Below are positions 23,476 through 39,298 of a stretch of DNA of 64,000 nucleotides, one piece after another (the stretch's first letter is position 1; the number at the start of each line of letters is the position of its first letter). Source of the stretch: Gemmatimonadota bacterium (GTDB taxonomy: Bacteria; Gemmatimonadota; Gemmatimonadetes; Gemmatimonadales; GWC2-71-9); assembly GCA_016874005.1 (NCBI GenBank), contig VGVQ01000002.1, forward strand, positions 176,458 through 240,457, given 5' to 3'. The position numbers and the translations under genes are program-made. The notes under the pieces were generated by a model. That model saw nothing but the letters and a program-made list of their open reading frames with translations. It was not told where the DNA came from and made no database searches.

Positions 23476-26400
23476 ATGCGGCTTGGTTTCGTACCGGTAT
23501 TCGCTCGATTGGCGCTGGCTTTTCCAGCCGCCGCGCTGGCCTCGTCGCTGAGCGCCGGCTCGGTGGTGGCGCAATCCGGCGCGGTGGCCGGAACTGTGGT
23601 CGACTCGCGGACCGGTCGGCCCTTGGCGGACGCGGCTGTCGCCGTCGAGGGTGGAACGGCCCGGGTTCGGACCAACGCGCGCGGCGAGTTTCGGTTCGAA
23701 AGCCTGTCCGGCACGGTCCAGTTGCAGGTGTCCCGGATCGGGTACCGTCCCCGCACCGCGACCGCCGCGGCTGGCACCACCACGGTCCGGGTGGAGCTGG
23801 ACGAGTTGGCCGTCAAGCTCGACGAACTGGTGGTCACCGGCACCGCCGCCGAGCAGACCAAGCGGAGCATGGGCAACGTGGTGGGCCAAGTGTCGGTCGC
23901 CGACATCGTCCAGATTGCCCCACCCACCAAGATCCAGGACATGCTCTCGGTCAACGTCCCCGGCGTCCGGGTCATCCGGTCGGGCGGCGCCGTTGGCGGC
24001 GGCGGTCCCACCAGAATTCGAGGCTCCGGCAGCCTGAGCCTTTCGAACGAACCGCTGATCTACATCGACGGCGTTCGAATCAACAACGACGCGGCCGCCA
24101 ACACCGAAGCCTTTTTCAACTGGTCGTATCCGTCGCGGATCAACGATCTGAACCCCGAGGAGATCGAGTCGATCGAGATCCTCAAGGGCCCGTCGGCGGC
24201 CACGATCTACGGCACCGAGGCCTCGAACGGGGTAATCCAGGTCATCACCAAGCGGGGTCGTGCCGGCCGGCCGACCTGGGAACTCCACGCCGACGCCGGC
24301 GCCAACTGGCTCCAGAACCCCGAGGGCCGCTTCGAACCCAACTACTACGTCGGGCGTGACGGCAAGGTCAAAGAGTTCCGGGTTCTCGATTTCCAGAAGG
24401 AGATCTGCCTCGACCCGGCCCGCAACTGCCCGACCCACGTCTTCTCGACCGGCACCCCGTTCGCCGCGGGCCTGACCTTGAGCGGCGGGACCGAAGCGCT
24501 CCGGTACTTCTTCTCGATCGACGCGAATCGCGACGAGGGGTACCTCCACTACAACTGGCAGAACAAGTACAACGCCCGCGCCAACCTGAGCTATTCGAGC
24601 CGCGACGACAAATTCAAGGTCGATCTGAGCTTCGGCGGAGTCCGCTCGAAGACCCGGAGCGCGGAGGCGTTTCAGGCTGTCACCACCTCGATCATCTGGT
24701 CGTGCAACTTCCCCGGGTGTGAGCCGGACCCGTCCGATCCCGACAACACCGGATGGAACGGCCCCGGGCATGGCTTCCAGTTCTATCGCCCGGAAGACTA
24801 CGACGCCGCATTCGGGTTCGACTTCATCGACCGGACCATGTTCAGCATGAAGTTCAGCCATCGGCCCCTGCCCTGGCTCAGGCACCAGTTGACGGTCGGC
24901 CCCGATTTCACCACGAACCGGTCATCGAACCTGATCGAGCGGGACGGCTCCGGCTACAATCCCTTCTTCGACTGGAGCCTCGGGTACAAGACGGGGCGAA
25001 CCATGCGCTCGACGTTCCTGACTTTGGATTACGGCGCGGCGGCGGACTGGTCGATCTCGAAGAGCCTCACCAGCACCACGTCCGTCGGGGCCCAGTACTA
25101 TTACAAGCAGTATGACATCCTCCGCGGCGAAGGCCGGCGGTTCTCGATTCCTGGCGGCTCCGACATCACCGGGGCGTCGCAGCGAGTCGCCGAAGAGTCG
25201 TTCTTCGAGAACAAGAACATCGGGATCTACGCCCAGCAGCAGTTCGCGCTCAAGAACCGCTTGTTCCTCACCGGCGCGGTGCGCGGCGACGACAACAGCG
25301 CCTTCGGCAGCAACTTCGACGCGGTGATCTATCCCAAGGTCAGCGCGTCATGGGTGCTGTCCGACGAGCCGTTCATGCCGAAGACCGGCTTCATCTCGCA
25401 GCTCAAGCTTCGCGGCGCGTGGGGCCGAGCCGGGTTGGCGCCGGACGTGTTCTCCGCCATCCGGACCTACCAGCCCAAGGTCGGGCCGGCCGGCCAAGGC
25501 GGTGTCTCGCCGCAGAACCTCGGCAACCCGAACCTCAAGCCGGAAGTCGGCGAGGAGATCGAGCTTGGAATCGACGCCGGCCTGTTCAACCAGCGGCTCG
25601 GGGTCGAGTTCACGTTCTACAACAAGGACGTGAAGGACGCGATCGTCTCGGTTCCCAACAAGCCGTCCCGAGGATTCCCCGGGGTGAGCTTCGTCAACCT
25701 CGGCAAGACCCGGAATCGGGGCATCGAGCTCGCGCTCGACGGCACCGTGATCAACCAGGCCAACCTTGGCCTCGACCTTCGCGGCACCATCGCGACGAAC
25801 TCGAACACCATTCTCGACATGGGAGACCTCAACCCGCTGGTGGGCGGCATCATCGGCAACCAGTGGGACGTCGAGGGATTCCCGGCCGGCTCCATCTTCT
25901 CGAAGAAGGTCGTCGGGTCGAGCATTCAACGGATCCCGGTGGGTGCCATCCAGCTGCCGATCGGGTTCGATCCGATGTGCGAAGGGGGCACCGATCTGGG
26001 TTACGGCAACGGGACCCAGGTCCCCTGTGAATCGGCCCCGCGGATTTTCCAAGGTCGGGTTACTCCCGCGTGGAACGGCAGCCTCAGCGCCACCTTGACC
26101 ATCAACAAGCGCCTCCGCGTCCTGGGTCTGGTGGATTACCTGGGCGGCCACTACATCACCTGCGGCGACTGCTGGGCCATGCACGCCTTCTTCCTGAGCT
26201 CGAGGGAAATTCTCGAGGGCACCGATCCGATCCTGTCGGGCTACCTCGGCACCTTCCTCCTCCAGGGCGACCCGAACTCCGTTGCCAATACCGGCTTGTT
26301 CAAGGCCGGCTTTGCCAAGTTGCGCACCGTGTCGGTTTCCTATGACCTCCCGAACCGGCTCACGAGGTGGGTGGGGGCAGCAAGAGGATCGATAACAATA

Positions 26401-26577
26401 TCAGGCGAGAACCTGGTGACACTCTGGCGGGCCCAGAAGGAGGCCTTCGGCGTCTCCTGGATCGACTCGGAGATTTCGTCGAACGCACCCTGGGCGGGAG
26501 TCCGCGATCAGGGCTTCATCCAGGAATCGTTCCCCCAGGCCGCCCGAGTCCGCGCCACGATGCGGTTCTCGTTCTAA
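23476..26577 (+). CDS. SusC/RagA-type TonB-linked outer-membrane protein
   Basis: 1033 residues; ATG 23476 is preceded by GGAGGG at 5 nt, after an AT-richer 60-nt leader. It has a signal peptide (LALAFPAAALASSLSAG...VVAQ), then a carboxypeptidase-regulatory-like domain (GTVVDSRTGRPLADAAVAVE, residues about 38-110). A plug domain follows with IQDMLSVNVPGVRVIRSGG, TRIRGSGSLSLSNEPLIYID and IESIEILKGPSAATIYGTEA. The TonB-dependent barrel ends at ATMRFSF with the terminal Phe usual for outer-membrane barrels. With the SusD-like lipoprotein downstream it forms an importer for a polymer-derived or peptide nutrient; no glycoside hydrolase is adjacent to hint at the ligand. Confidence 0.93.
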   Translation: MRLGFVPVFARLALAFPAAALASSLSAGSVVAQSGAVAGTVVDSRTGRPLADAAVAVEGGTARVRTNARGEFRFESLSGTVQLQVSRIGYRPRTATAAAGTTTVRVELDELAVKLDELVVTGTAAEQTKRSMGNVVGQVSVADIVQIAPPTKIQDMLSVNVPGVRVIRSGGAVGGGGPTRIRGSGSLSLSNEPLIYIDGVRINNDAAANTEAFFNWSYPSRINDLNPEEIESIEILKGPSAATIYGTEASNGVIQVITKRGRAGRPTWELHADAGANWLQNPEGRFEPNYYVGRDGKVKEFRVLDFQKEICLDPARNCPTHVFSTGTPFAAGLTLSGGTEALRYFFSIDANRDEGYLHYNWQNKYNARANLSYSSRDDKFKVDLSFGGVRSKTRSAEAFQAVTTSIIWSCNFPGCEPDPSDPDNTGWNGPGHGFQFYRPEDYDAAFGFDFIDRTMFSMKFSHRPLPWLRHQLTVGPDFTTNRSSNLIERDGSGYNPFFDWSLGYKTGRTMRSTFLTLDYGAAADWSISKSLTSTTSVGAQYYYKQYDILRGEGRRFSIPGGSDITGASQRVAEESFFENKNIGIYAQQQFALKNRLFLTGAVRGDDNSAFGSNFDAVIYPKVSASWVLSDEPFMPKTGFISQLKLRGAWGRAGLAPDVFSAIRTYQPKVGPAGQGGVSPQNLGNPNLKPEVGEEIELGIDAGLFNQRLGVEFTFYNKDVKDAIVSVPNKPSRGFPGVSFVNLGKTRNRGIELALDGTVINQANLGLDLRGTIATNSNTILDMGDLNPLVGGIIGNQWDVEGFPAGSIFSKKVVGSSIQRIPVGAIQLPIGFDPMCEGGTDLGYGNGTQVPCESAPRIFQGRVTPAWNGSLSATLTINKRLRVLGLVDYLGGHYITCGDCWAMHAFFLSSREILEGTDPILSGYLGTFLLQGDPNSVANTGLFKAGFAKLRTVSVSYDLPNRLTRWVGAARGSITISGENLVTLWRAQKEAFGVSWIDSEISSNAPWAGVRDQGFIQESFPQAARVRATMRFSF

Positions 26578-26605
26578 CCGGCGACCGCCAAGGAGATCAT
26601 CGACC

Positions 26606-27862
26606 ATGCTGACCTTGCGTTTCGTCCGCCCCCTCTCGGTCCTGGCCGCCTCGGTCTTGGGCGCCACCGCGTGCAGCAACGTCCTCGACGTGGACTTCCC
26701 CGGGCGTGTTCCGGCCGAGCAGATCGACGACCCGAGCCTGGCTCCAGTGCTCGTCAAAGGCGTCATCGGCGACCTCGAGTGCGCCTACAACAACTACGTC
26801 GCGGCCACGGCGGCCCATGGTGACGAGTTCGAGACCGCCAACTCCAACGGCACCGGGGCCGCTTGGGGCGAGCGCGGTATCACCTCGGATTTCGAGGACT
26901 ACATCAGCGGCCCCTGCGAAGGGACCTTCACCGGGTTCGGCATTCAGACGGTGATGCATACCGCCCGGTTCCAGGCCGAAGACATCTATAATCGGCTCCA
27001 GGCCTGGACCGATCAGCAGGTCCCGAATCGGCGCAAGTTCCTGGCAACGGTTCGGACCTACGGGGCCTACCCATACATCTTCTTCGGCGAGACCTATTGC
27101 GAGATCGCCTTCGACGGCGGTTCCGCGGTCTCCCGGGCCGCCTCGCTGACCATCGCCGAGCAGCGGCTCACCGAGGCCATCACGTTGGCCCAGGCCGCCG
27201 GCGACAACGACATCCTGAACTTGGCTCGGGTTGGGATGGCCCGGGTCAGGATGAACCAGCAGAAGTGGCCCGAGGCCGCTCAGGTGGCTGCCCTGGTATC
27301 GAGCGGCTACGTCAAGTTGGCCGACCGTGGCACCGAGAACGACCGACGTTACAACAAGTTCTATGGCAACTTCACGGCGGGTGGCCTCTACGTCGTGGCC
27401 GACGAGCTGCGGACCATCAACGACCCGCGGCTCCGGGTCCGCGATGGCGGCCGTGGTGCCTTCAACCCCACGATTCGGCTCTGGGTCACCGATAAGTACG
27501 GCAGCCTGGGCGATCCCATCATCCTGGCCAGCTACCGTGAGGCGCAGTTGATCCTGGCCGAAGCGCAGGCCCGTCAAGGGCAGATCGGTCAGGCGCTCGG
27601 CATCCTCAACGCTCGCCGCGGTCAGCTCGGCCTCAGCCCGGTCACCGCCACGACCCAAGCCGCAGCCATCGCGGCGGTCATCGAGGAACGCCGTCGCGAG
27701 CTGGCCTTCGAGGGCGGCCACCGCCTGAACGACATTCTTCGGAACAACATTCCCTGGAAGGGTGCCAACGGGTCGACCAGACGGTTCAACGACTACACCG
27801 GGCGCCCCTATGGCGCGGCTACCTGCTTCCCGCTGCCGACCAAGGAGGTTTCGGGGGTCTAA
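26606..27862 (+). CDS. RagB/SusD-type nutrient-uptake lipoprotein
   Basis: 418 residues, 28 nt after the SusC gene in the same operon. The signal peptide ends in a lipobox (VLGATAC, Cys at about 23), then SNVLDVDFPGRVPAEQIDDP, the usual SusD start. Helical TPR-like elements follow: AEQRLTEAITLAQAAGDNDI, ARVGMARVRMNQQKWPEAAQ and EAQLILAEAQARQGQIGQAL. The C-terminal region VIEERRRELAFEGGHRLNDI is the family signature. It would sit on the outer face of the outer membrane as a lid over the SusC pore. A strong terminator follows. Confidence 0.9.
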   Translation: MLTLRFVRPLSVLAASVLGATACSNVLDVDFPGRVPAEQIDDPSLAPVLVKGVIGDLECAYNNYVAATAAHGDEFETANSNGTGAAWGERGITSDFEDYISGPCEGTFTGFGIQTVMHTARFQAEDIYNRLQAWTDQQVPNRRKFLATVRTYGAYPYIFFGETYCEIAFDGGSAVSRAASLTIAEQRLTEAITLAQAAGDNDILNLARVGMARVRMNQQKWPEAAQVAALVSSGYVKLADRGTENDRRYNKFYGNFTAGGLYVVADELRTINDPRLRVRDGGRGAFNPTIRLWVTDKYGSLGDPIILASYREAQLILAEAQARQGQIGQALGILNARRGQLGLSPVTATTQAAAIAAVIEERRRELAFEGGHRLNDILRNNIPWKGANGSTRRFNDYTGRPYGAATCFPLPTKEVSGV

Positions 27863-27929: not shown

Positions 27930-28889
27930 TTACCGGGCTCGAGTGGATGGCCCGAGGTAGCGCTTCTTGACCTTGGCCACGACGGTGTACGCGGGGTCGA
28001 CGACATTGGCGACCGTGTTCTCGCCGACCTGGCCGAGCAGGGTGTAGGCGTCCATCTTCTCGAAGCCATAGTCCGCGACCAGCCACTCGATCAGTTCCAC
28101 GTGGGCCAATCGGAAGGCGTCGATCAAGGGGCGAGCGCTGCCCGCCACCATGATGTAGTCGCGGTCCTCGAGGCGAGGCCAGTTGATCGGCTTCCCCTTG
28201 ACGACATCGATCTTGAAGATCACGTCCATGCTGGTTTCGAGTCCGGTGCCGTTGACTTCGCCTTCGCCCTGCCGGGCGTGTCCATCCCCGAAGTAGAAGT
28301 ATGCCCCGTCGTGGAATATCGGCAGGTAGACGGTGGTGCCCTCGCGGACCTCGGGGGCGTCCATGTTGCCCCCGAAGTCTCCGGGCCAGATCCCACCGAA
28401 CGCCTCCTCCCCGCGCGGTGCCACGGCCATCCGCCCGAGCATCGGTTGGAGATCGATCTCGAGACGCCGCCGGCTGTTGGGCATTTCGGTCGTGGCCACC
28501 ATCCGCACCGTGTCGAGACGCCAGAGATATCGTCGAGCCGCGATCGGCTCGTTCAGCAGCCGGACCGTCTTGTCCATGGTCAGGCCGCCGAAGTCCGGGT
28601 AGAGTTGCGAGGCAGCGAGCCCGGTATTGGGCCGAACCTTGATGATCTCGACCTTGAGCATGTCTTGGGTCGTGGCTCCCTCGACGTAGATCGGGCCAAC
28701 CTCGCCCGGAAAAGCCCCGCCCTGTTCGGTGTAGTAGGCACCGTGATTGGTCTTGCTGATCAGCACGGTCCCGGGTCGAACCCGCAGCACCGGCGGCCTC
28801 ACCGCGAAGGTGGGCTGAAGCACGGTCGGATTGAAGCGGACGGTATCCTGGACGGCAAGGACGGCGAACGCCCCGGCGAGTAACCACAT
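27930..28889 (-). CDS. Acetamidase/formamidase family protein, exported
   Basis: 319 residues with an N-terminal hydrophobic signal (WLLAGAFAVLAVQ). FmdA/AmdA family elements are visible: PGTVLISKTNH, GPIYVEGATTQD, GIWPGDFGGNMDAPEVREG, the DGHARQGEGEVNGTGLE block with the conserved aspartate and glutamates, and the C-terminal LIDAFRLAHVELIEWL. These enzymes hydrolyse small amides in most bacteria. The export signal suggests periplasmic action here, less common than the cytoplasmic form. It appears to be a single-gene unit; upstream DNA is shared with a divergent small gene. Confidence 0.85.
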   Translation of the reverse strand: MWLLAGAFAVLAVQDTVRFNPTVLQPTFAVRPPVLRVRPGTVLISKTNHGAYYTEQGGAFPGEVGPIYVEGATTQDMLKVEIIKVRPNTGLAASQLYPDFGGLTMDKTVRLLNEPIAARRYLWRLDTVRMVATTEMPNSRRRLEIDLQPMLGRMAVAPRGEEAFGGIWPGDFGGNMDAPEVREGTTVYLPIFHDGAYFYFGDGHARQGEGEVNGTGLETSMDVIFKIDVVKGKPINWPRLEDRDYIMVAGSARPLIDAFRLAHVELIEWLVADYGFEKMDAYTLLGQVGENTVANVVDPAYTVVAKVKKRYLGPSTRAR

Positions 28890-29092
28890 CTCATGCCTCG
28901 GTAGCTAAGGTATTGCGGAAGATACTTCGAAGAGCGCCGTACAGGGGCAGATCGCCCCAACAGATTCCAGGTCCGAACCACTCGACGCGCCCGGCCTCCC
29001 GTCGCGGTGGTTGCGTAGGGGACCGCGGTCGGGGCATCTTCCCCCGGGGCCACCGCCCGCGCTTTGGATCGCCTAGCCAACTGGAGCACCTG

Positions 29093-29452
29093 ATGAGCGA
29101 GATACCGTCGCAGGACCGTCTTGCCGACCTGAGCGCCGCCTTGGGAAACCCTGATCAGCCGGTGCTGCCGGTTCCCAAGCTGGAAGACCTGAAGGCGTGG
29201 CTCGACGAGACCCGACTCCACCTCTGGGGCCAACTCCAGGCCGCCCACGCGGACGAGCCCGAGTTCGAGGAGCGATTCCGGATTCGCCGCCTCATCGAAT
29301 CGTGCCAGCGGCTGAGCGCCGACGTTCGAGTCGGTCGCCTCGACCCACATCGGCCCGAGCTGATCGACCTCCGCGCCGCGATCGCCGAGTTGGGCGCCGT
29401 CATCGCCGCGGGACAGGCACTGCCGCCAAGGGGTGCCGGGCCGGTCGGCTAG
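29093..29452 (+). CDS. Hypothetical protein, 119 residues
   Basis: ATG 29093 has GGAG 8 nt upstream. The product is soluble, acidic to neutral and strongly helical (PKLEDLKAWLDETRLHLWGQ; FEERFRIRRLIESCQRLSAD). No known domain is recognised. Its last 53 bases overlap the 3' end of the heme A synthase gene on the opposite strand, so the two genes share coding DNA. It could be a small regulatory or scaffold protein; nothing further can be said. Confidence 0.55.
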   Translation: MSEIPSQDRLADLSAALGNPDQPVLPVPKLEDLKAWLDETRLHLWGQLQAAHADEPEFEERFRIRRLIESCQRLSADVRVGRLDPHRPELIDLRAAIAELGAVIAAGQALPPRGAGPVG

Positions 29453-30455
29453 GGTCGCGCCGCGACGCCAACACCACCGCGAGAGCGAACACCGCGACCG
29501 CGACGCCCTGGTGGGCAACCCCCAGGACGACCGGCACGGACCAGAGCAGCGTCGCGACCCCCAACGCGAACTGGAGGACGATCGTCGCCACGACGCCCAG
29601 GCCCAGCCGTCGATCGATCGCCGCGTCGCCACGCATGGCAGCATACCCGAGCCACAGCCCGCTGAACGCCGTGACGGTCGCCAGCCACCGGTGATGGAAC
29701 TGAGCGGCGACCGGATCATCGAGCAGATTGGCCCACCACGGTGACAGCCGGCCGTACCCGGGCGGAACCCACTGGCCGCCCATTCTCGGGAACTCGTTGA
29801 AGATCCTACCGGCGTCGAGACCCGCGACCACCGCGCCCGCGAGCGCGGTGAGAAAGACGGCGCCCACCCACGCCCAGGCCGCCACTCGACCAGGACCCCG
29901 GGCCCCAACGGTGTCCGCTGGTATCAGGAGCCGCGTCGCGGTGGCGACCGTGATCGCCACGATCACGAGCGCGAGGCCGAGATGGGCCGCCAACCGGTGT
30001 TGACTGACATCGGTCCGGACGGTGAGGCCGCTTTGCACCATGAACCAGCCGAGAACCCCCTGGGCGATCAGGAGCACCGCGAGCAGCACTGTCCGCCGCT
30101 TGAGCCTGCCGTCGAACCAGCCGCGCCGCCAGAAGAGGGCCATGGGAACGAGCAGCGCCAAGCCAACGAGCCGGGCCCAGAGCCGGTGGAAGTACTCCCA
30201 GAGGTAGATCTGCTTGAACCGGCCGAGGTCCATGCCGGGGTGCTCGATCAGGTACTCGGGGATCTGACGGTACTTGGCGAAGGCCTCCTCCCAGGCTGCG
30301 GCCCCGATCGGCGGGATGACGCCACTGATGGGCTTCCACTCGGTGATCGAGAGCCCCGAGTCGGTGAGCCTGGTGATCCCGCCGATCATCACGGTCAGCA
30401 GCAGCATCACCGCCCACGCGGTGAGCCACCAGCCAATCGCCCGAGCTGGCTTCAT
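29400..30455 (-). CDS. ctaA: Heme A synthase, CtaA/COX15 family
   Basis: 351 residues, eight predicted membrane helices. Conserved heme-ligand regions are present: GGITRLTDSGLSITEWKPI after helix 1, LWEYFHRLWARLVG, DVSQHRLAAHLGLAL, QFHHRWLATVTAFSG and LGVAHQGVAVAV. It oxidises the C8 methyl of heme O to give heme A for aa3-type cytochrome oxidase in the inner membrane. It is the last gene of an operon with the cytochrome b fusion; its ATG overlaps the stop of the preceding 198-residue gene. No ctaB or oxidase subunit is in the window. Confidence 0.92.
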   Translation of the reverse strand: MKPARAIGWWLTAWAVMLLLTVMIGGITRLTDSGLSITEWKPISGVIPPIGAAAWEEAFAKYRQIPEYLIEHPGMDLGRFKQIYLWEYFHRLWARLVGLALLVPMALFWRRGWFDGRLKRRTVLLAVLLIAQGVLGWFMVQSGLTVRTDVSQHRLAAHLGLALVIVAITVATATRLLIPADTVGARGPGRVAAWAWVGAVFLTALAGAVVAGLDAGRIFNEFPRMGGQWVPPGYGRLSPWWANLLDDPVAAQFHHRWLATVTAFSGLWLGYAAMRGDAAIDRRLGLGVVATIVLQFALGVATLLWSVPVVLGVAHQGVAVAVFALAVVLASRRDPSRPARHPLAAVPVPRR

Positions 30456-31048
30456 GGCAATCTCTTCGGATCGGACCGGAGAGTGAATCGCTGCCCGTCC
30501 GGATCGTAGCCGATCAAGACGACCTCGCGGGCACCGAGCGACACGACGGTATCCAACCGGACCTCCGCCGGCAGCGCCTCGCGACGGACCCGCTCGCGGG
30601 TAGCCTCCATCCGGCGCTCGCGATCGGTGGTCAGGGTTCCGAGGCTGTCGGCCACCGGGTCCAGGGAGTCCAGCCGTCGCACCTCGACGACGAGACGGCG
30701 AAGTCCTGGCGCGACGGGAAGGTCACGAAGCAGGTGAATCATGCCCTCGTGCCGCGCCCCGCCGCCCCGCAGAGTATCGCCGAGTCGCTCGACGCCGTCG
30801 ATGCGCCCGAACAAGCCGTATCGCGCGGCCCGGCCCTCGCATTGCACCCGCTGGCGCATGTGGGCCGGCACCCCGGCCAATTCCTCGTCGGAGAGCTGCC
30901 GGCAGTGCTCGATCCGCTGCGGCCGCGCGCTCCAGGCGATCCGGATCCGCCCGTCGGTCCCCTGATGGCTCCGCCAAGGGGCCACCGAGCCGACGACCAG
31001 AGCCAGGGCCGTTACGACGGCGACCGCCATGGCGAGCGCTCGAGTCAT
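30452..31048 (-). CDS. Membrane-anchored protein of unknown function in the cytochrome b / heme A operon
   Basis: 198 residues with one N-terminal membrane helix (ALAMAVAVVTALALVVGSVA) and a presumably periplasmic body. Notable are a conserved-looking block EHCRQLSDEELAGVPAHMRQ followed by VQCEGRAARYGL, so two cysteines about 27 residues apart bracket the HMR element. I believe similar proteins occur beside ferredoxin/cytochrome b fusions in other bacteria but know no function. It overlaps both neighbours by 4 nt, so it is translated as part of the respiratory operon. It could be an assembly or periplasmic electron-transfer partner (inference). Confidence 0.75.
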   Translation of the reverse strand: MTRALAMAVAVVTALALVVGSVAPWRSHQGTDGRIRIAWSARPQRIEHCRQLSDEELAGVPAHMRQRVQCEGRAARYGLFGRIDGVERLGDTLRGGGARHEGMIHLLRDLPVAPGLRRLVVEVRRLDSLDPVADSLGTLTTDRERRMEATRERVRREALPAEVRLDTVVSLGAREVVLIGYDPDGQRFTLRSDPKRLP

Positions 31049-32601
31049 CGCGCCACCTGGGCAGTGCGCTCCACGGCCAAGCCAGCAACGGCCGCCGCGA
31101 CCGCCCCCGCGTCAGTCGCGTCGACCACGACCACGCGGCTCGGCTCGACACCGGCCGGCAGCCGGGCCTCCCGCCTCCCGGCCACCCGCTCGGTCGCCCA
31201 TTTTGGCCCCTCGCGATGCCAGCAGTCGCGGCTCGGGCACCCGGCCAGGACCACACCGCTGGCTCCGGCGTCCATCGCGGCGCCAATCATGTTGGGGTGA
31301 ACCGACCCCACGCAGGCAACGGTCGTCACCAGGACGTCGGAGCTTGATGCCTGGGACCCGGCGGCGTGGGCGCAGCGCAGCATCACGACGCGACCAGCGA
31401 CGGCCGGTCGATCGTAGTCGTGCTTGGCCCACTCGAGTTGGTCCCGCCCGTTTCGTCCTGGCGGGCCGACCGCCGACACCTCGCATGAGCCGGCGCAAAT
31501 GCCGCAGCTCACGCAACGGTCCTGGGCCACCTTGGCGACGAGCTTGGCGCGACCGTCGGTCCGGGCCACCATCGCGATCGCCTCGTAGGGACAGTCATGG
31601 GCACACTGCTCACAGCCGGTGCAGAGTCGGCTGTCGACGCGTGACGGCTCGGCGGAACCCTTGGGCTCCCCGGTGAGCCACGGTACCGCCAGGAGGGCGC
31701 CGACCAGCGTAGTGACGCCAAGCCACGCCCCCCACGGGGGCAGCGCGGCATGGAGTGGCAACCAGAAGGCATAGAACCAATCCACCGGGACCGATTCGGC
31801 GAGCCGAAAAGGATTGGCTTCGGGGGCGATACGGAGGGGGCGCGCGAAGGCCAGGACCACCAAGCCGACCACCACCGCGACCCACAGGCGGCGAGGCGGC
31901 AACAAGGTCGGCCGGGCCACTCGTGACACGTGAAGCCAGAGTCCGAGACCTAGGCCAAGCGGCAGCGCGACGTGGAGAAAGAGATTGACGAAAAAGAAAG
32001 CGCTCGGGATCGCCTGATCCCCCAGAAAGGTGAGTTGGAGCGGCTTGGCCAGGATCGGCAGGGCATCGATGATTCTGGCGCCCTCGACGGCCAGAAGCTC
32101 GCCAAACTGGTCCCAGACCAGAACGAAACCGGTCCACCCGCAGACGAAAAGCAATCCCAACAGACCGACCCCGGTCAGCCAGGCCAGGAGCCGGGGTCCG
32201 TGAGTTCGTCGCTCCAAGAACATCCGGCCCAGGTGGACCACCACCGCCAGGATCGAGGCATCGGAGGCGTAGCGATGGACTCCTCGAACCCAGTTCCCGG
32301 CCAGGCGGTCGTCGGTCAGCGCGGCGACCGAGGCCCAAGGCGCCCCGATCCGGTATAAGAAGAGGAGCCACAGCCCGGTGACCAGCAAGACGATCAAGAG
32401 GACCACCGCGATGGTCCCGCTCTGGTACAGGGGGTTGTACCGGCTCCCGTAGAGCCGATTGCACGACGAAGCTCGATCTCGGGCGGCCTCGTCGATCCTT
32501 GGCCTGGCACCGAATGGCCAGGCCGAGGGCCAGATCTCGTCGGTATCCGGGATGCTGACCCACGGGGCCCGCCCGAACGCCCGGCAAGCCAGGGTGGGCA
32601 C
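31045..32601 (-). CDS. Cytochrome b / di-[4Fe-4S] ferredoxin / MvhD-domain fusion protein
   Basis: About 518 residues from GTG 32601; the start is uncertain, and the same frame stays open to 32712 but that part overlaps the preceding small gene. Residues about 45-235 are a cytochrome b/b6-type domain with two pairs of heme-ligating histidines spaced by 14 (His109/His123 and His210/His224). More membrane helices run to about 310. Residues 327-373 carry two ferredoxin motifs, CTGCEQCAHDC and CVSCGICAGSC. Residues about 404-515 resemble the MvhD/FlpD [2Fe-2S] subunit, with Cys410, Cys430, Cys455 and Cys460. The layout suggests electron transfer between the quinone pool and a cytoplasmic iron-sulfur partner; direction is unknown. 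Confidence 0.85.
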   Translation of the reverse strand: MPTLACRAFGRAPWVSIPDTDEIWPSAWPFGARPRIDEAARDRASSCNRLYGSRYNPLYQSGTIAVVLLIVLLVTGLWLLFLYRIGAPWASVAALTDDRLAGNWVRGVHRYASDASILAVVVHLGRMFLERRTHGPRLLAWLTGVGLLGLLFVCGWTGFVLVWDQFGELLAVEGARIIDALPILAKPLQLTFLGDQAIPSAFFFVNLFLHVALPLGLGLGLWLHVSRVARPTLLPPRRLWVAVVVGLVVLAFARPLRIAPEANPFRLAESVPVDWFYAFWLPLHAALPPWGAWLGVTTLVGALLAVPWLTGEPKGSAEPSRVDSRLCTGCEQCAHDCPYEAIAMVARTDGRAKLVAKVAQDRCVSCGICAGSCEVSAVGPPGRNGRDQLEWAKHDYDRPAVAGRVVMLRCAHAAGSQASSSDVLVTTVACVGSVHPNMIGAAMDAGASGVVLAGCPSRDCWHREGPKWATERVAGRREARLPAGVEPSRVVVVDATDAGAVAAAVAGLAVERTAQVAR

Positions 32602-32621
32602 CCGTGCGAGCGAACGTCTGT

Positions 32622-32777
32622 TCAGGGCCTCGTGAGCACGAAGTAGATGACGTACAGCCACGAGAAAACCCCGTGGAGACAGGCCCAGAGTACCGATTGG
32701 TTGGTCGACCACGAGATCGTGATCGCCAACGCCGTCCCAAACGAGATCCCCGCCTTCGCGACCGACCTCCGATCCAT
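32622..32777 (-). CDS. Small membrane protein, 51 residues, first gene of the cytochrome b operon
   Basis: ATG 32777 is preceded by AAAGGAAAGGAA about 7 nt upstream, a strong ribosome site. The product has a basic N-terminus and two hydrophobic stretches (ISFGTALAITISW and SVLWACLHGVFSWLYVIYFV). The pattern of polar residues N and H inside the hydrophobic part (STNQSVLWACLHG) resembles a family of tiny conserved membrane proteins I have seen annotated only as hypothetical. It ends 20 nt before the proposed start of the cytochrome b fusion and is probably cotranscribed with it. Confidence 0.7.
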   Translation of the reverse strand: MDRRSVAKAGISFGTALAITISWSTNQSVLWACLHGVFSWLYVIYFVLTRP

Positions 32778-32828
32778 GGCGTCGTTCCTTTCCTTTGGCA
32801 GCCGCTCTCGCGTCGCCGCTCCTTCCGC

Positions 32829-34202
32829 CTATTCCACCCGTCGCGCGAGCGACACCACCGCGGTGGCATCGACCCGAACCGCCGTGACCCGACCACCCTC
32901 GCCCCGCCGGAACACATAGCGGGTGCCACCCGCGCCAAAGGTGTCGTTGCCAAGATGAAGGAGCGGCCGCGTTGCTGCCTGCCCGCCGCCTTTGACCTTG
33001 AGCACGCCCTCCTCGACGGTGAACGTGATGTCGGTGGGGACCCCGCGCCCCACTCCGCGAAACCGGCCGGTGTAGGCCGCGAGATCACCGGTGACCGGTA
33101 CCCCGACCATCTCCTTGCCGGGCCCGAGCACCGCCTTGGCGATCGCGGTCGCGATGCCACCAGGGTTGGCGGGGCCAGCGGTGTTCGTCAGCACCACCAC
33201 ATAGAGGTCATCATCTGGATAGTAGCGCGAATCGGTGGTGAAGCCACTGATGCCGCCGCCGTGGGAGATCAGCCGACGGCCATCTTCCTCTCCGGCCACG
33301 AGGCCCTTCGCGTAACGAAGCGGGTAACCATCGTTGAGAGCACCCGGTGTGATCATCTCGCGATACGATGCCCGGCTCACCACCCGGTCGCTGGTGTGGA
33401 GGGCCCGAAGCCAAGCGATCAGGTCGCCAGCGGTCGAGCAGAGCGATCCGGCCGCGTACGGCCAGGAGTGATTCTGTCGCGCCGCCTTGAGCAACTTCCC
33501 GCCGAAGTTGTACCCGTGCACCTTGCGTTTGACCAGGTCGGTTTCGCTGCAGTACGACGAACTCGGCATCGCCGCCTTGTCGAACAAGTTCGCCTTGACA
33601 TACTCGGCGTAGCCCTGGCCGGAGACCTTCTCGATGATCATCCCGAGGAGGAAGTACGCCGAGTTGTTGTAGACGACCGCTTCGCCGGGGGTGAAGTCGA
33701 AGCCCTTGTTGGCGAACAGTGCCATGATCGAGTCCTTCGACGTCGTCAGCCCCATCAGCGGCCGTGCCTCGGCGATCTCGGTGTAGCTACGGATGCCCGA
33801 GGTGTGATCGAGGAGGCGGCGGATCGAGATGTGCTGGCCGCGAGCGGGGTACGTCGGCAGATAGGTGAGCAAGTCGTCGTCGAGTTTGACCTTGCCTTGC
33901 TCCACCAGCTGCATGATCGCGGCGGCCGTGAATTGCTTGGTGATCGAGCCGATCTCGTAGATCGCGTTCGCCGGGGTTGGGGTGTCGAGTTCGAGGTCGG
34001 CCGCGCCGTAGCCTTTGAGGGCGATGGTGTCACGGCCCTTGACCACCGCGATCGAGACGCCCGCCACCTGGCCGGCCTTGATCGGCGCGGAGACGATCGA
34101 GTCGATCTGGGCGACGAGTTTGGCGCGATCGGGGCGCTGCGCGGTGAGGGACGCGGGCGCGCTGAGCCCGGTGACGATCACGATGGAGACGAGAAGGCGC
34201 AT
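32829..34202 (-). CDS. Serine hydrolase, beta-lactamase (class C/PBP4*) family
   Basis: 457 residues with a signal peptide (LLVSIVIVTGLSAPASLTAQ). The active-site SxxK is Ser86-Ile-Thr-Lys89, the YxN motif is Tyr178-Asn-Asn180, and HGGG near residue 315 replaces the KTG triad as usual in this family. The C-terminal 110 residues form a lipocalin-like DUF3471-type domain (YTGRFRGVGRGVPTDITFTV). The substrate may be a peptide, ester or beta-lactam; it is periplasmic. A candidate -10 element TATATT lies on the coding strand at 34262-34267, 60 nt before the start. It is probably monocistronic. Confidence 0.88.
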   Translation of the reverse strand: MRLLVSIVIVTGLSAPASLTAQRPDRAKLVAQIDSIVSAPIKAGQVAGVSIAVVKGRDTIALKGYGAADLELDTPTPANAIYEIGSITKQFTAAAIMQLVEQGKVKLDDDLLTYLPTYPARGQHISIRRLLDHTSGIRSYTEIAEARPLMGLTTSKDSIMALFANKGFDFTPGEAVVYNNSAYFLLGMIIEKVSGQGYAEYVKANLFDKAAMPSSSYCSETDLVKRKVHGYNFGGKLLKAARQNHSWPYAAGSLCSTAGDLIAWLRALHTSDRVVSRASYREMITPGALNDGYPLRYAKGLVAGEEDGRRLISHGGGISGFTTDSRYYPDDDLYVVVLTNTAGPANPGGIATAIAKAVLGPGKEMVGVPVTGDLAAYTGRFRGVGRGVPTDITFTVEEGVLKVKGGGQAATRPLLHLGNDTFGAGGTRYVFRRGEGGRVTAVRVDATAVVSLARRVE

Positions 34203-34323
34203 GGGTCGAGATTCCTTCGAGGGGTCCGGGGAACCGCGGGGGGCGGCGGTGATGGATCAATAATATACCGGACCACGGGCCCCGGGTTTGTCTAGCCGAA
34301 GCGCGGCTCCGGGTGCCGCGGCA

Positions 34324-35571
34324 TCATCGCTTGGTGGTATTCGGTGCCGCCCCGGCCTCCATCAACCCGATCAAGCGGCGCACCGCCTCACCCACGAACG
34401 AGGGCGCTTCCGCATCGGCGTCCACCTCGACGACTTCCACCCCCGGCGGAAGTCCCGCCCGGAGGGCCTCGAAGAACGCCGCATCGCTCTCCGGATCGTG
34501 GAGCGGGCCACCCGGTACCGAATATCGTCCGACGCCCCGTAGCGGCAACATGAACACCGCCTTCCCGCCGGCGGATCGCAGCCGCGAACAGATCGCTTCG
34601 GCGACTCGGACGATCTCTTCGCGGTTGAGGCGGGGGACGAAGATCACCGGGCTATGGAAGACGTACCGATGGCCGCGGTACTTCTCCGGGACCTCATTGG
34701 CCTCGACGAAGAGGCCCAAATGCTCCGCCCCGCCGGGGCAGATCACCTGGGGCAACCCCAGTTTCCCCGCCACCGTGAGCCGTTCCGGACCGCTCGCCCG
34801 TAACCCGCCGAACACCTCATCGGCGATCTCGCCCAACGCGTAATCGAACACCGCGCCGATCACGCCCTCTTTCATCAGCTGCTCCATCGCCCGGCCGCCG
34901 GAGCCGACCGCGTGGAACACGACCACGTCGTACCCGGCGTCGCGAAACAACTGGAGGGCCAGGGTGGCGCCGTCGGTGAGGACCCCCAGGTTCGTCATCG
35001 CGACCAGCGGCTTGTCGCCCCGCCTGGCCTCCATGGTTCCCTCGACCCGGGACATCCCGTGCGCCGCGGCGGCCGCGTTGGCGAGAATCCGCGCGGTGAA
35101 CGGGTTGACCCCGACCAGGTCGCTCACCGAGAAGACCATGGTGATGTCCTTGACCCCGACGAACCGCGAGGTATCTCCCGAGGCGACGGTCGAGACCATC
35201 ACCTTGGGGAAACCGTACGGCAACGCTTGCATCACCTGGGTACAAGACGAGGTGCCCTGGGTCCCGCCCACGCCGAGCACCGCGTGGGCACGACCTGACT
35301 CGATCAACTCGAGCAGGATCCGGGTGGCGCCGGCGACCATGATCGGGGCCGCCGCCTCGCGGGTCGGCGCTCGAAGCAGTGCGCCCAAATCGCTCCCGCC
35401 GGCGCGGGCGACCTGCTCGCGGCTGACGTGGGCGGCCAGGCCGGGCGTGCCCACCACGCCGAGATCGATGATCGTCACCGCCCCGCCGAGACCAGCCACC
35501 TGACGGCGGAGGAACTCGACCTCCTCGGCCTTGGTGTCGAGCGTGGCGAGGAGCACCACCGTGCGGGTCAC
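34324..35571 (-). CDS. Tm-1-like ATP-binding protein (UPF0261)
   Basis: 415 residues. The start VVLLATLDTKAEEVEFLRRQ and the block VLGVGGTQGTSSCTQVMQAL, then STVASGDTSRFVGVKDITMV, are signatures of UPF0261 / Tm-1 N-terminal domain proteins. It ends with GLPPGVEVVEVDADAEAPSF. The plant Tm-1 protein, which blocks tobamovirus replicase, is a fusion of this domain to the TIM barrel encoded by the gene just upstream; the bacterial role is unknown. The ATG overlaps the stop of the TIM-barrel gene, so the two are translationally coupled and probably form one complex. Confidence 0.88.
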   Translation of the reverse strand: MTRTVVLLATLDTKAEEVEFLRRQVAGLGGAVTIIDLGVVGTPGLAAHVSREQVARAGGSDLGALLRAPTREAAAPIMVAGATRILLELIESGRAHAVLGVGGTQGTSSCTQVMQALPYGFPKVMVSTVASGDTSRFVGVKDITMVFSVSDLVGVNPFTARILANAAAAAHGMSRVEGTMEARRGDKPLVAMTNLGVLTDGATLALQLFRDAGYDVVVFHAVGSGGRAMEQLMKEGVIGAVFDYALGEIADEVFGGLRASGPERLTVAGKLGLPQVICPGGAEHLGLFVEANEVPEKYRGHRYVFHSPVIFVPRLNREEIVRVAEAICSRLRSAGGKAVFMLPLRGVGRYSVPGGPLHDPESDAAFFEALRAGLPPGVEVVEVDADAEAPSFVGEAVRRLIGLMEAGAAPNTTKR

Positions 35572-36440
35572 GGTCGGGCCGGCCGGTTGGTGAACTCGAG
35601 GCCAGCGAACTCCCGGGCGGCGGCGAGGACCGCCCGCTCGATCGGCAGCCGTTCGGTCGAGGAGCCGGTCCAGAACCCGTGCCCGCTGGTGTGATCGAGC
35701 AAATACTGCGCGTCCGCCGGTGCCTCCATGGCTGCCCCATGGCCAACCAGGATCGCCTCGGGGTGAACCGCCCGCACCACCGCATAGGCCGCTTCGGTGC
35801 GGCGCGCGGTCTCGGCGATCGTCTCGCCGGAGTCGAAACCGACCAGGCCGCCCTTGGTGGTCCCGGCGTGGAAACAGAAGATGTCCGGTGCCGCCCGCTC
35901 GGCCATCCGGCGGCTGTCCTCGAGGTCGTAGGCCACCGCGATCGTCACCATCCCCAGCTCTTTCGCCAGCGCCAGCATCTCGATCTCGTGGTCATAGGTG
36001 ATGCCGCTCTTCACCAGGACCCGGTAGAGGGTGCTGTCCTTGTCGAGGTAACCGATCGACGGCCCCACGTTGGAAACCGACGACACCCCCATCGACTTGA
36101 GCCGCTCCAGCACGGAGCGCATGTCCTTGAGCGGATCATTGGCGTTGAGGCAGGCGCAGACGAAGGCGTCGCCCTTCAAGGCGGGGAGAATGTCCTGCTC
36201 CGTGTAGCGCAGGGTCTGCTCGTTCGAGTCGAGGATCGGCCACATCATCGCCATGGTGCCCATCCCGTTGGCGCGCAGTCGCGCGCCCGAGAAGGTGTTG
36301 ATGCAGTCGACACCGGCATCTTCGAGCAGTTTGGCCACCAGACCGCTGCCGGCGCTGGCGATGAAAATCGGGCGGCGCTTCGCCACCTTGGACCGGAGCT
36401 TTCGGAGAATCGCGTCGCGGGTGGTCCGAGGAACGATCAT
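35568..36440 (-). CDS. PEP-hydrolase-family TIM-barrel protein (Tm-1 C-terminal-like)
   Basis: 290 residues from ATG 36440. Recognisable elements: RPIFIASAGSGLVAKLLEDA, INTFSGARLRANGMGTMAM, FVCACLNANDPLKDM, the conserved SNVGPSIGYLD, and CFHAGTTKGGLVGFDSGETI. This is the PEP_hydrolase (PF09370) TIM barrel, a paralogue-rich group with a poorly known reaction. It sits 11 nt after the PVC dehydrogenase gene and overlaps the Tm-1-like gene. In many bacteria the two Tm-1 halves are adjacent as here. It is probably cytoplasmic, in contrast with the exported upstream products. Confidence 0.88.
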   Translation of the reverse strand: MIVPRTTRDAILRKLRSKVAKRRPIFIASAGSGLVAKLLEDAGVDCINTFSGARLRANGMGTMAMMWPILDSNEQTLRYTEQDILPALKGDAFVCACLNANDPLKDMRSVLERLKSMGVSSVSNVGPSIGYLDKDSTLYRVLVKSGITYDHEIEMLALAKELGMVTIAVAYDLEDSRRMAERAAPDIFCFHAGTTKGGLVGFDSGETIAETARRTEAAYAVVRAVHPEAILVGHGAAMEAPADAQYLLDHTSGHGFWTGSSTERLPIERAVLAAAREFAGLEFTNRPARP

Positions 36441-36451
36441 GGCGAGGAGTC

Positions 36452-39298
36452 CTATCGGACCACGTGCAGCACCGCGCGCATGGTATGTCGATGCCCGGGA
36501 AAGGTGCACAGCATGTCATAATCGCCAGGTGTCGCCGGCGCCCGGAATTCGATCGCTTCCGAGGCCTGGTGCTTGAGCAGCTCGGTCGCCGCCAGGACCT
36601 TGTCGCTGGTGGGTCGGAACTGTCGGGCAAAGCCGTCCGCGCCGAGCCGATCCGCCGCCGCCCCGATCTCGTCGTGGGAACCCGGTGTTCCGATGATCAG
36701 GTTGTGGGGGGTGTAATCGTCGTTCACGAACCGGATGGTCACGGTTGTCCCCGCGGTCACCCGGTATACCGGGAGGTCGTAGCGCATCCCTTCGACGACC
36801 GCGCGGACCACGATGGCACCGTCGTCCGCGACGTCCCGACTCGCCGATCTCGGGGCCGCGGGCGCCCCGGTCGCCGGTGGCCCGCCGCCGCGCGCCGCCC
36901 ACATCCGCTCCACCCGCCTGGCGGCCAGCCGTGCCGCCGGCACCGGCGAGGCGAGGACCAGGCCGAGCAGTTCCCGATTCACGACGTTGTGCTGCTGGAA
37001 AACCCAGAGCGCCTCGAGCAGGTGATGGGCGTCGGCTGGCGTGGTGGGGTCGAGCCGTCCTATCCACTCCCGGGTCGCGGCGATCACCTCCGCGCTGTTG
37101 CGCTCCGACAGCTCGACCCGGGCCCGATGCCGGATGCCGTCGACCGGATGCTCCAGCGCCGCGAGGAGCGCCGGAATGGGCTGGCCGTCGATGGCCACAG
37201 GTTGCGAGAGCGGCCGCCCTGGCACCGTGATCCGATAGATCCGCCCGTGGCTGTGGTCGCGCGCCGGGTCGCGGATGTTGTGCTGCATGTGGCCGATGAC
37301 CGCGTTGGACCAATCGGCCAGGTACAAGGCGCCATCGTCACCGATCTCGAAGTCGGTGGGCCGGAAGTTCGGGTCGGAGGACACCAGGAGGTCCTCGGTC
37401 TCGGTTCCCTGAACGTCGCCGGTGACCGGATCGGCCCTGAGGGTGTACTGCTTGACGCCGAGGAAAGCGATCACGTTCAGGATCAGGAAGTTGCCTTGAT
37501 TCTTGGCGGGAAAGTGCCCGCTCGAGAGAATCCCGCTCGACGGGACCGGCCGCACGGTATGCCGCAGCATCTGCCGCATCGAGAAGGTCCCGTCGGGATG
37601 ATCCTTGACCTGGTAGGCCGTCCCGCCGGTCGCGTCCGTGGCGTAGTGGTTGCCCCAGTAGTCGAAGCTGGTCCCGTGCGGGTTGGGACTGTTCACCGCG
37701 TGGAAGCTGAACTCGTGGGTTCGGGGGTTGAAGCGGTACATGCCGGACCGATTCGACTCCTGATTGGCCCGCCAAGGCGTCTCGAAGTTGGAGACGCTGA
37801 AAATGCCCTCCTGGTAGTAGACGAAGCCGTCCGGCCCATAGACGAAGTTGTTGGCGGCGTGGTGGGTGTCCGCCGAGCCGATCGTGCCGCCGATCCGATA
37901 GCGAACGTCGGCCACGTTGTCCCCGGTGGTGTCCTTGAGGAACAGCAGATCGGGCTGGGAGGCCACGATCACCCCACCGTTCCAGAACTCGAAGCCGGTC
38001 GGGTTTTGCACGTAGGCGAAGGTGATCGCGGTATCGGCCACGCCGTCGCGGTTGTCGTCCGGGAGAATCAGGAGCCGATCGTTCATCGGTCCCAACGGTT
38101 CCCATTTGGGGTAGGTTCCCCAGGTCGCCGCCCAGAGGCGGCCCCTGGTATCGACCCCGAGCTGCACCGGATTGACCAGTTCCGGAAACCGCTCTTCGGA
38201 GGCGAACAGGTTGGCTTTCATCCCCCGCGCCAGTCGCATCCGCTCGATCGCGGCCTCGCCGCCCAGGTAGTCGAGGCTCCCGGTCTTGGAGACGCCATCC
38301 TGGAGCTGCGGCTCGGTGAGATTGGTCTCGACCGCCACCGGCGGGGGGACTTTGGAGTCGTCCGCCGTGAGCCGCTCGCCTCGCGCGGCGGCCCAGATCA
38401 CCGGATCGCGATTGGCGGTCAGGTGGTCGAGCTGGACCAGCTCGTTCTGGAGGACCTCGTAGTTGGTCTGCCCGTTGACGAAGGCGAGGGTGGCTCGCGA
38501 CCCCCAGACGTCGTTGCCGTCGGTGGCGCGATATCGGTTGTACCAGTACCGGTTCTTCTCGCGTACCGCGGCCCGGACCGCCTCCACCCGGGCCTGGTCC
38601 CCGGCCGGCGCCCTGCCTAACAATCGCCCCACGATCGTCTCGGCGACTTGGCGGTTGCCTTCGCTGTTGAGGTGGACGCCGTTGATCGTCAGCGGCTCTG
38701 TCGACTCCGCGTAGAGCCGCCGGGTCGGTTCGAACAGATCGAGGTACCCGACCCCTTCGGCCCGCGCCACCGAATCCATGACTCGGGCGTACTTCGCCAA
38801 GCGGCCATTGTTGGCGGAGCCATCCGGGAGGTTGGGATCGCCGAGGTCTTCGTGGGCGATCGGCGAGAACAGCACCAGGCGGGGCGCGCCCCGACCGGAG
38901 TAGTTCTGGGCCCGGGTGTGAGCGATCCAATCCGCCAGCGCGGCGGCGAAGCCGGCCGGATCGTCGTCGTAGGACTCGTTGTAGCCGAACATCGCGAAGA
39001 TCACGTCGGCCTTCGACAGCCCGAGGTAATCGTCCGGCGTCGGCCACCCCTTGGTGCGAGGGCGATGGTCGATCCGGTCTCCGGTGACCCCTTGGTCGCG
39101 GATGACGAGCCGGTGGGTCGGACGAGCGAGTTGGAGGTAGGTCTCCAGCCACCCGTCGTCCTGCATTCGATCGGCCAAGGCGTTGCCGATGATGACGATG
39201 TGATCGCCAGGATCGAGCTCTAACTCGGGGGCCGCGCACGCCACGGTCGTCGCGGCGATCAGCGGAGCAATTCGTCCGAGCGGCCGCCGGATGGTCAT
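36452..39298 (-). CDS. SGNH hydrolase / PVC-type dehydrogenase / cupredoxin three-domain lipoprotein
   Basis: 948 residues from ATG 39298, with AAGGG 9 nt upstream. A signal peptide with lipobox-like TTVAC is followed by an SGNH-like domain (IVIIGNALADRMQDDGWLE, FGYNESYDDD, NGVHLNSEGNRQVA; residues about 30-235). Next is a PVC-type (sorbosone/glucose dehydrogenase-like) propeller, about residues 330-730 (LARGMKANLFASEERFPELV, FEIGDDGALYLADWSNAVIG). It ends in a blue-copper domain (about 840-948) with ligand pattern His in YTPHNLI, then Cys, His and Met in MLCTFPGHRHTM. Relatives often have a CxxCH heme domain at this place; none is seen here. It is coupled to ThuA upstream (ATGA). Confidence 0.88.
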   Translation of the reverse strand: MTIRRPLGRIAPLIAATTVACAAPELELDPGDHIVIIGNALADRMQDDGWLETYLQLARPTHRLVIRDQGVTGDRIDHRPRTKGWPTPDDYLGLSKADVIFAMFGYNESYDDDPAGFAAALADWIAHTRAQNYSGRGAPRLVLFSPIAHEDLGDPNLPDGSANNGRLAKYARVMDSVARAEGVGYLDLFEPTRRLYAESTEPLTINGVHLNSEGNRQVAETIVGRLLGRAPAGDQARVEAVRAAVREKNRYWYNRYRATDGNDVWGSRATLAFVNGQTNYEVLQNELVQLDHLTANRDPVIWAAARGERLTADDSKVPPPVAVETNLTEPQLQDGVSKTGSLDYLGGEAAIERMRLARGMKANLFASEERFPELVNPVQLGVDTRGRLWAATWGTYPKWEPLGPMNDRLLILPDDNRDGVADTAITFAYVQNPTGFEFWNGGVIVASQPDLLFLKDTTGDNVADVRYRIGGTIGSADTHHAANNFVYGPDGFVYYQEGIFSVSNFETPWRANQESNRSGMYRFNPRTHEFSFHAVNSPNPHGTSFDYWGNHYATDATGGTAYQVKDHPDGTFSMRQMLRHTVRPVPSSGILSSGHFPAKNQGNFLILNVIAFLGVKQYTLRADPVTGDVQGTETEDLLVSSDPNFRPTDFEIGDDGALYLADWSNAVIGHMQHNIRDPARDHSHGRIYRITVPGRPLSQPVAIDGQPIPALLAALEHPVDGIRHRARVELSERNSAEVIAATREWIGRLDPTTPADAHHLLEALWVFQQHNVVNRELLGLVLASPVPAARLAARRVERMWAARGGGPPATGAPAAPRSASRDVADDGAIVVRAVVEGMRYDLPVYRVTAGTTVTIRFVNDDYTPHNLIIGTPGSHDEIGAAADRLGADGFARQFRPTSDKVLAATELLKHQASEAIEFRAPATPGDYDMLCTFPGHRHTMRAVLHVVR

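Follow-up and report, generated by a model that had tools for sequence, protein, structure and literature searches.

The window analysed here, a stretch of 64,000 nucleotides from a Gemmatimonadota bacterium (contig VGVQ01000002.1, positions 176,458 to 240,457), encodes on its minus strand a single polypeptide in which a cytochrome b, a ferredoxin and an MvhD domain are joined, and the question raised by this locus is which respiratory enzyme such a fusion serves and in which direction it would carry electrons. An earlier note made from the letters of the window had read the fusion as part of a four-gene operon, together with a heme A synthase, a membrane-anchored protein with two conserved cysteines (here the two-Cys protein) and a 51-residue membrane protein, and had suggested a branch of the aerobic chain. 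The four open reading frames (ORFs) exist on the minus strand. However, the constant partner of the fusion family and of the adjoining two-Cys gene in other genomes is a heme-copper enzyme with Gln at the active-site Tyr position, and not a Tyr-type oxygen reductase. We therefore read the fusion and the two-Cys protein as the predicted electron-input module of a likely nitric oxide (NO) reductase, a reading for which we consider the case evenly balanced. The features on which this reading is built are the following (residue numbers here and below refer to a 555-residue numbering):

31045..32601, minus strand: cytochrome b-ferredoxin-MvhD fusion, 518 residues; the GTG start at 32601 is likely, not certain
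31651..32466, minus strand: cytochrome b domain; bc1-fold helices A-F, His pairs H146/H247 (bL-like) and H160/H261 (bH-like)
31465..31644, minus strand: ferredoxin domain; eight Cys, two [4Fe-4S] clusters predicted
31102..31395, minus strand: MvhD (FlpD) domain; four invariant Cys, [2Fe-2S] cluster predicted
30452..31048, minus strand: two-Cys protein; N-terminal helix (predicted anchor) and beta-sandwich

Architecture and conservation of the fusion protein

All three domains scored above their Pfam cut-offs (Cytochrome_B, 57.2 bits with a cut-off of 27.2; Fer4_7, 32.4 bits with a cut-off of 27; FlpD/MvhD, PF02662, 51.6 bits with a cut-off of 22.3), which bears out the domain composition given in the earlier note. 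The ligands it had counted are likewise present: the heme ligands H146/H160 and H247/H261, spaced by 14 residues within each helix and placed on helices B and D, as expected for two b hemes; the ferredoxin residues C364/367/370/374 and C400/403/406/410; and the MvhD residues C447/467/492/497. These 16 ligands are invariant throughout an alignment of 28 rows with 27 different proteins. The cytochrome b part of the predicted structure covers helices A-F, a bc1-type fold that extends beyond the four-helix core. The quinone and cytochrome side of the proposed membrane complex is thus joined to Fe-S clusters according to fold and domains, while the cytoplasmic position of the latter is our reading of the domain order and the charged loops rather than a computed result. 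The ferredoxin domain is akin to those of HdrA2/HdrA and FwdF, the MvhD domain matches the MvhD chains 5odc_D, 7bkb_F and 9sw2_D, and a flavin domain (flavin adenine dinucleotide-binding, thioredoxin-reductase-like) was not among the 16 Pfam matches of the fusion at E ≤0.1.

The ORF listing extends the fusion to 31045-32712, and a start at 32712 would create a 91-base overlap with the gene of the 51-residue protein. In the database, the copy from the window itself (P0005) has 518 residues and begins at the GTG at 32601, and this start was adopted; the true start is uncertain because the residues N-terminal of the cytochrome domain align poorly with the relatives. At the other end, a Cys occurs within the last 25 residues in 81 of 85 complete C-termini, and a stricter Cys motif in 54 of them. 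The four exceptions are the window's fusion, L043, L070 and L075, the last with a Cys a little further back, and the residue is also missing in P0006-P0008 and P0010. The Cys-bearing tail that is usual in the family, but absent in the window's fusion (31045-31100) and in its nearest kin P0006-P0008, may mark dependence on eNOR (the NO reductase type discussed below). One relative, P0241, is a longer version of 745 residues with an extra unidentified part.

A homologue search, in which the best 7999 candidates were scored, yielded 2545 fusion homologues at E ≤0.001, and a further search from L080, the sequence on the longest branch among the fetched loci (see below), added Xenobia, Eremiobacterota and Schekmanbacteria. 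Encoding loci in one-per-species genomes number 221. Together with the 67 genomes of the phylum that carry the fusion (see below), these figures rule out a misassembly or a rare one-off.

The component parts of the fusion are known kinds, and each of the related systems shares some of them. Like the cytochrome b of bc1 and b6f complexes, the fusion model has the fold of helices A-F and two His pairs, but its Fe-S domains are attached after helix F, and the neighbour clusters present in at least 10 of the 80 fetched loci (see below) include no recognised Rieske or cytochrome c1/f family. It also differs from b6 in having Gln at the aligned position of the b6 Cys that presumably holds heme c. 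The C-terminal part of HdrA2 shows the same succession of ferredoxin and MvhD (fusion 351-537 with HdrA2 566-756 of 777, 63.7 bits, far below the family cut-off of 1100), whereas the fusion has a cytochrome b in place of the flavin half. Among the NCBIfam models, ExtP, a b-type cytochrome of a selenite/tellurite reduction operon, scored highest against the cytochrome b part (96.3 bits), but this lies below the cut-off of 290 and the 205-position model spans the cytochrome part only. In the literature passages covered, the domain set was met only as lines of a domain table: an appendix table of PMC8756737 gives the domain names cytochrome b6, DMSOR-beta and FlpD for a single protein, RME88945.1, which unlike the fusion also has a C1 cytochrome c domain, the reason for its listing, and the part of the source covered gives neither a function nor a link to an NO reductase for it.

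Association with a Gln-type heme-copper enzyme

For the gene neighbourhood, the best 80 of the encoding loci, mostly from one phylum, were fetched. Where the contig extends for 3 kb or more upstream of the fusion, a heme-copper subunit I gene was always present (65/65 loci); in the whole set it was found in 67/80, the contig ending within 2.6 kb upstream in the other 13. Its strand is opposite to that of the fusion in 66 loci, L080 being the one in which both genes share a strand. In 60 loci the upstream sequence reaches 4.5 kb or more, and among these the region up to 6.5 kb from the fusion contains subunit I in 59, CuA subunit II in 59, the copper chaperone Sco in 59 and an Rrf2 regulator in 41; in L036 subunit I is found at about 9 kb. 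The same arrangement occurs where there is room in loci labelled as other phyla, namely L047 (Acidobacteriota), L074 (Myxococcota) and L080 (unclassified), while L025 (Vicinamibacteria) has no room; L038, labelled Acidobacteriota, groups with a Gemmatimonadota sequence in the tree and may be mislabelled. Neighbour gene clusters were annotated if they occurred in at least 10 of the 80 loci. The annotated ones comprise the subunits of the Gln-type enzyme, Sco, Rrf2 and the two-Cys gene, plus two on the strand of the fusion, at about -3.0 and -4.3 kb, which are probably antisense reading frames; cluster 0 combined the fusions with 49 upstream frames of this antisense type.

The two-Cys gene directly follows the fusion in 66/66 loci with at least 2.5 kb downstream. 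A first phmmer pass had lost it in 6/80 loci, four of them cut by a contig end; the count of 66/66 comes from a profile search. Its position immediately 3' of the fusion throughout suggests a periplasmic subunit. Residues R36, C49 and M64 are conserved in 75/75 rows of the alignment and H63 and C70 in 73/75, and these could serve either a disulfide or a metal site. The AlphaFold2 model (mean predicted local distance difference test score 89.9) consists of a single N-terminal helix and a beta-sandwich, and Foldseek returned no solved structure resembling it at E ≤0.001.

The identity of the linked enzyme was derived from its alignment with ba3 and related oxidases. All 67 subunits I found in the 80 loci carry Gln at the position aligned with the active-site Tyr of T. 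thermophilus ba3, and six His are invariant, which we take to be the known metal ligands. The CuA ligands H, C, E, C, H and M of subunit II are invariant in 11 aligned sequences. According to the passages covered of PMC8756737, Gln at the Tyr site defines eNOR, eNORs are often misannotated as oxidases, and a cupredoxin second subunit is predicted for them; a passage of PMC11388526 cites eNOR as biochemically characterised. By its Gln and its CuA subunit II, the linked enzyme is likely an NO reductase of the eNOR kind, with NO as the substrate that we infer from these sequence features; the fusion itself is the neighbour of eNOR, not eNOR.

In addition, co-occurrence was examined in 298 genomes of the phylum with thresholds of E ≤1e-100 for the fusion and E ≤1e-120 for the profile of the Gln-type subunit I, with scoring limited to the four or five top candidates of each genome. 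The fusion was found in 67 genomes, the Gln-type subunit I in 66, both in 63 and neither in 228 (Fisher value 1e-55, kinship ignored). Five of the seven mismatched genomes are cut by contig ends: the fusion runs off the end in G190 and G157 and the eNOR gene in G006 and G188, and in G240 the contig starts inside the eNOR gene, which is present with CuA and Rrf2. The remaining two are G214 and the window's own genome (G000), so that the four genomes with the fusion and without the reductase comprise three contig-end cuts and that of the window. The G214 enzyme (L120, G214:C123, 7815-9332) has the motif WTIGHGTQQIN and a CuA gene, and it is possibly a second eNOR lineage in the phylum. In a set of 41 close genomes, the Gln-type enzyme was found in 8/9 holders of the full fusion, and all eight genomes with only a Tyr-type ba3-like enzyme (E ≤1e-50) lacked the full fusion.

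A gene for NirK accompanies the system in part of the genomes. In a congener of the window's organism (G001), NirK (2167-3060), Sco, subunit I, CuA and then the fusion with the two-Cys gene form one cluster; in G180, G228 and G248, NirK lies within 5 kb of eNOR or the fusion on the same contig. A NirK-like frame was seen in 5/80 fetched loci: L082 (judged by sequence and length, the same contig as that of G001), L067, L047, L033 and, weaker, L018. Over the whole phylum, NirK exceeded the cut-off in 42/298 genomes, with 19/67 among those with the fusion and 23/231 among the others (p 5e-4).

How eNOR-type reductases obtain their electrons is little treated in the literature passages covered, and the fusion, which accompanies the Gln-type enzyme in 63/66 genomes, is an obvious candidate for supplying them. 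It could also be used as a marker separating the Gln-type enzyme from ba3 oxidases in metagenomes.

Direction of electron flow and rival explanations

In the proposed route, a cytoplasmic donor would reduce the [2Fe-2S] cluster of MvhD, from which electrons would continue over the two [4Fe-4S] clusters to the hemes within the membrane, first bH and then bL. On the periplasmic side they would be handed to quinone or to a periplasmic carrier, perhaps with the participation of the two-Cys protein as a putative subunit, then to CuA of eNOR subunit II and finally to NO. The covered part of PMC9012536 describes that in HdrABC-MvhAGD electrons enter via MvhD into the C-terminal ferredoxin of HdrA, which favours this direction from donor to membrane. 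In the passages covered of PMC9430772, MvhD of Sporomusa ovata is a membrane linker and the flow is modelled from quinone or cytochrome b into MvhD, which favours the reverse. The cytochrome b of the fusion would then oxidise quinol, and the electrons would run by way of the hemes into the Fe-S clusters and on to MvhD, supplying a cytoplasmic partner with reductant, with eNOR as the oxidising end. The bc1-type fold agrees with this as well, but a soluble acceptor gene was not recognised among the annotated neighbours and the MvhD of the fusion is the sole PF02662 match in the window's genome, so that we regard the opposite flow as rather unlikely, though of some weight. A further reading is a quinol-bifurcating NO reductase complex. 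Quinol would be split at a bc1-like site on the p-side; one electron would fall to CuA of eNOR and NO, and the other would be driven up by way of bL and bH into the two [4Fe-4S] clusters and MvhD, which would pass it to a soluble acceptor of low potential. Such a complex, which we consider quite improbable, would be a Q-cycle machine with an inner arm ending in Fe-S clusters rather than in the quinone pool, and NO reduction would pay for low-potential reductant in aerobes.

The two other explanations assign the fusion to a different task. The branch of the aerobic chain suggested in the earlier note would serve the aa3-type oxidase and have a genuine partner in heme A synthase, and the window itself agrees with it: heme A synthase overlaps the two-Cys gene by four bases, and its genome encodes a caa3 oxidase, with eNOR absent. 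Of the 66 loci with room downstream, 11 carry heme A synthase at a distance of up to 2.5 kb, one of them on the other strand (with a looser distance rule, in 14/80 loci; the list also names L122, the same contig as L004). However, it is lacking there in the other 55, a second copy exists in the window's genome, and the fusion tracks the Gln-type enzyme and not the Tyr-type ba3-like enzymes, which makes this branch unlikely and rules out heme A synthase as an obligate partner. Alternatively, the fusion and the two-Cys protein could serve the assembly of eNOR by heme or copper insertion, or the sensing of NO stress, instead of electron supply. Sco and Rrf2 in the same locus and the conserved Cys, His and Met of the two-Cys protein are in line with this, but the invariance of the twelve cluster Cys and of the four heme His is more in keeping with an electron wire than with sensing, and we hold such a role to be very improbable.

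Several points weigh against the electron-input module for eNOR. Gene linkage does not show contact between the fusion and eNOR, the assignment to eNOR is based on the Gln marker and not on a tree with named eNORs, and the counts of loci and genomes are not independent, as some of the 80 loci are the same contigs as phylum genomes (e.g., L082 and G001). A recurrent donor gene family was not found near the fusion among the annotated neighbours, which is also the outcome for the soluble partners in general, whose co-occurrence the earlier note had proposed to check. A passage of PMC13274419 calls eNorB quinol-dependent; if true here, a feeder to CuA would be less needed. G214 carries its distant Gln-type enzyme (522 bits) without the fusion, and NirK over the cut-off is missing in 48/67 fusion genomes. 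Finally, the window's fusion lacks the usual C-terminal Cys of the family, and in its genome, which is 97% complete (3.88 Mb, 49 contigs), neither NirK over the cut-off nor a Gln-type subunit I was found, although the fusion lies mid-contig.

The only COX1 matches in this genome are the subunits I of a Tyr-type caa3 and of a cbb3 enzyme. In a quick maximum likelihood tree with 101 rows, the window's fusion groups with P0006-P0008 (98% support in the Shimodaira-Hasegawa-like approximate likelihood ratio test), and the enclosing ten-row group (99%) also holds the eNOR-linked protein of the congener G001. This suggests to us a cassette that was once linked to eNOR and later became separated from it. 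Without eNOR it probably survives as a link between quinone and Fe-S clusters, or else the reductase is missing from the assembly; an aerobic role is still conceivable in this particular genome because the Gln-type enzyme is absent there. The genome thus offers a natural test, with the module retained without the reductase.

As to novelty, a link between the fusion and eNOR was not found in the literature search, the scope of which did not include the main eNOR paper by Murali et al. 2024 (PNAS), reportedly on the eNOR of R. marinus; therefore, a new variant is claimed, not priority. The fusion would be a covalent membrane link to MvhD, the sort of partner that the covered part of PMC9430772 does not identify for Sporomusa.

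Further genes and signals in the window

The two remaining genes of the proposed operon flank the fusion and the two-Cys gene:

29400..30455, minus strand: heme A synthase (CtaA/COX15), PF02628 with 323 bits (cut-off 29.9); optional part of the cassette
32622..32777, minus strand: small membrane protein of 51 residues, hydrophobic on visual inspection; likely a bystander

The fusion, the two-Cys gene and heme A synthase overlap by 4 bases at both junctions between them and are likely co-transcribed. The motif of the 51-residue protein was found in 0/80 fusion loci, and the protein belongs to a family of 129 homologues with up to 90% identity and no Pfam name, in which Gemmatimonadota account for three of the four listed rows with an organism named; this small-protein family is apparently independent of the fusion. 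The four genes as a unit are ruled out by this separate family, by the absence of the motif from the fusion loci and by the frequency of heme A synthase given above.

A scan of 28800-34600 by consensus matching gave no sigma-70-like promoter, where chance alone would give 0.5, together with nine terminator-like sites, which are consensus matches only, all on the minus strand (2.3 expected), one within the gene of the 51-residue protein at 32683-32670 and several within the fusion. The gene of the 51-residue protein is preceded, at a distance of 51 bases and in the same orientation, by that of a serine hydrolase of the beta-lactamase family (PF00144) at 32829-34202, and this could be the first gene of the transcript. 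Further away, the genes of a UPF0261 protein and a PEP (phosphoenolpyruvate)-hydrolase-like protein, both named from Pfam, adjoin with a 4-base overlap at 34324-36509, and a TonB-dependent receptor gene followed by a SusD-family gene forms an outer-membrane uptake pair at 23476-27862.

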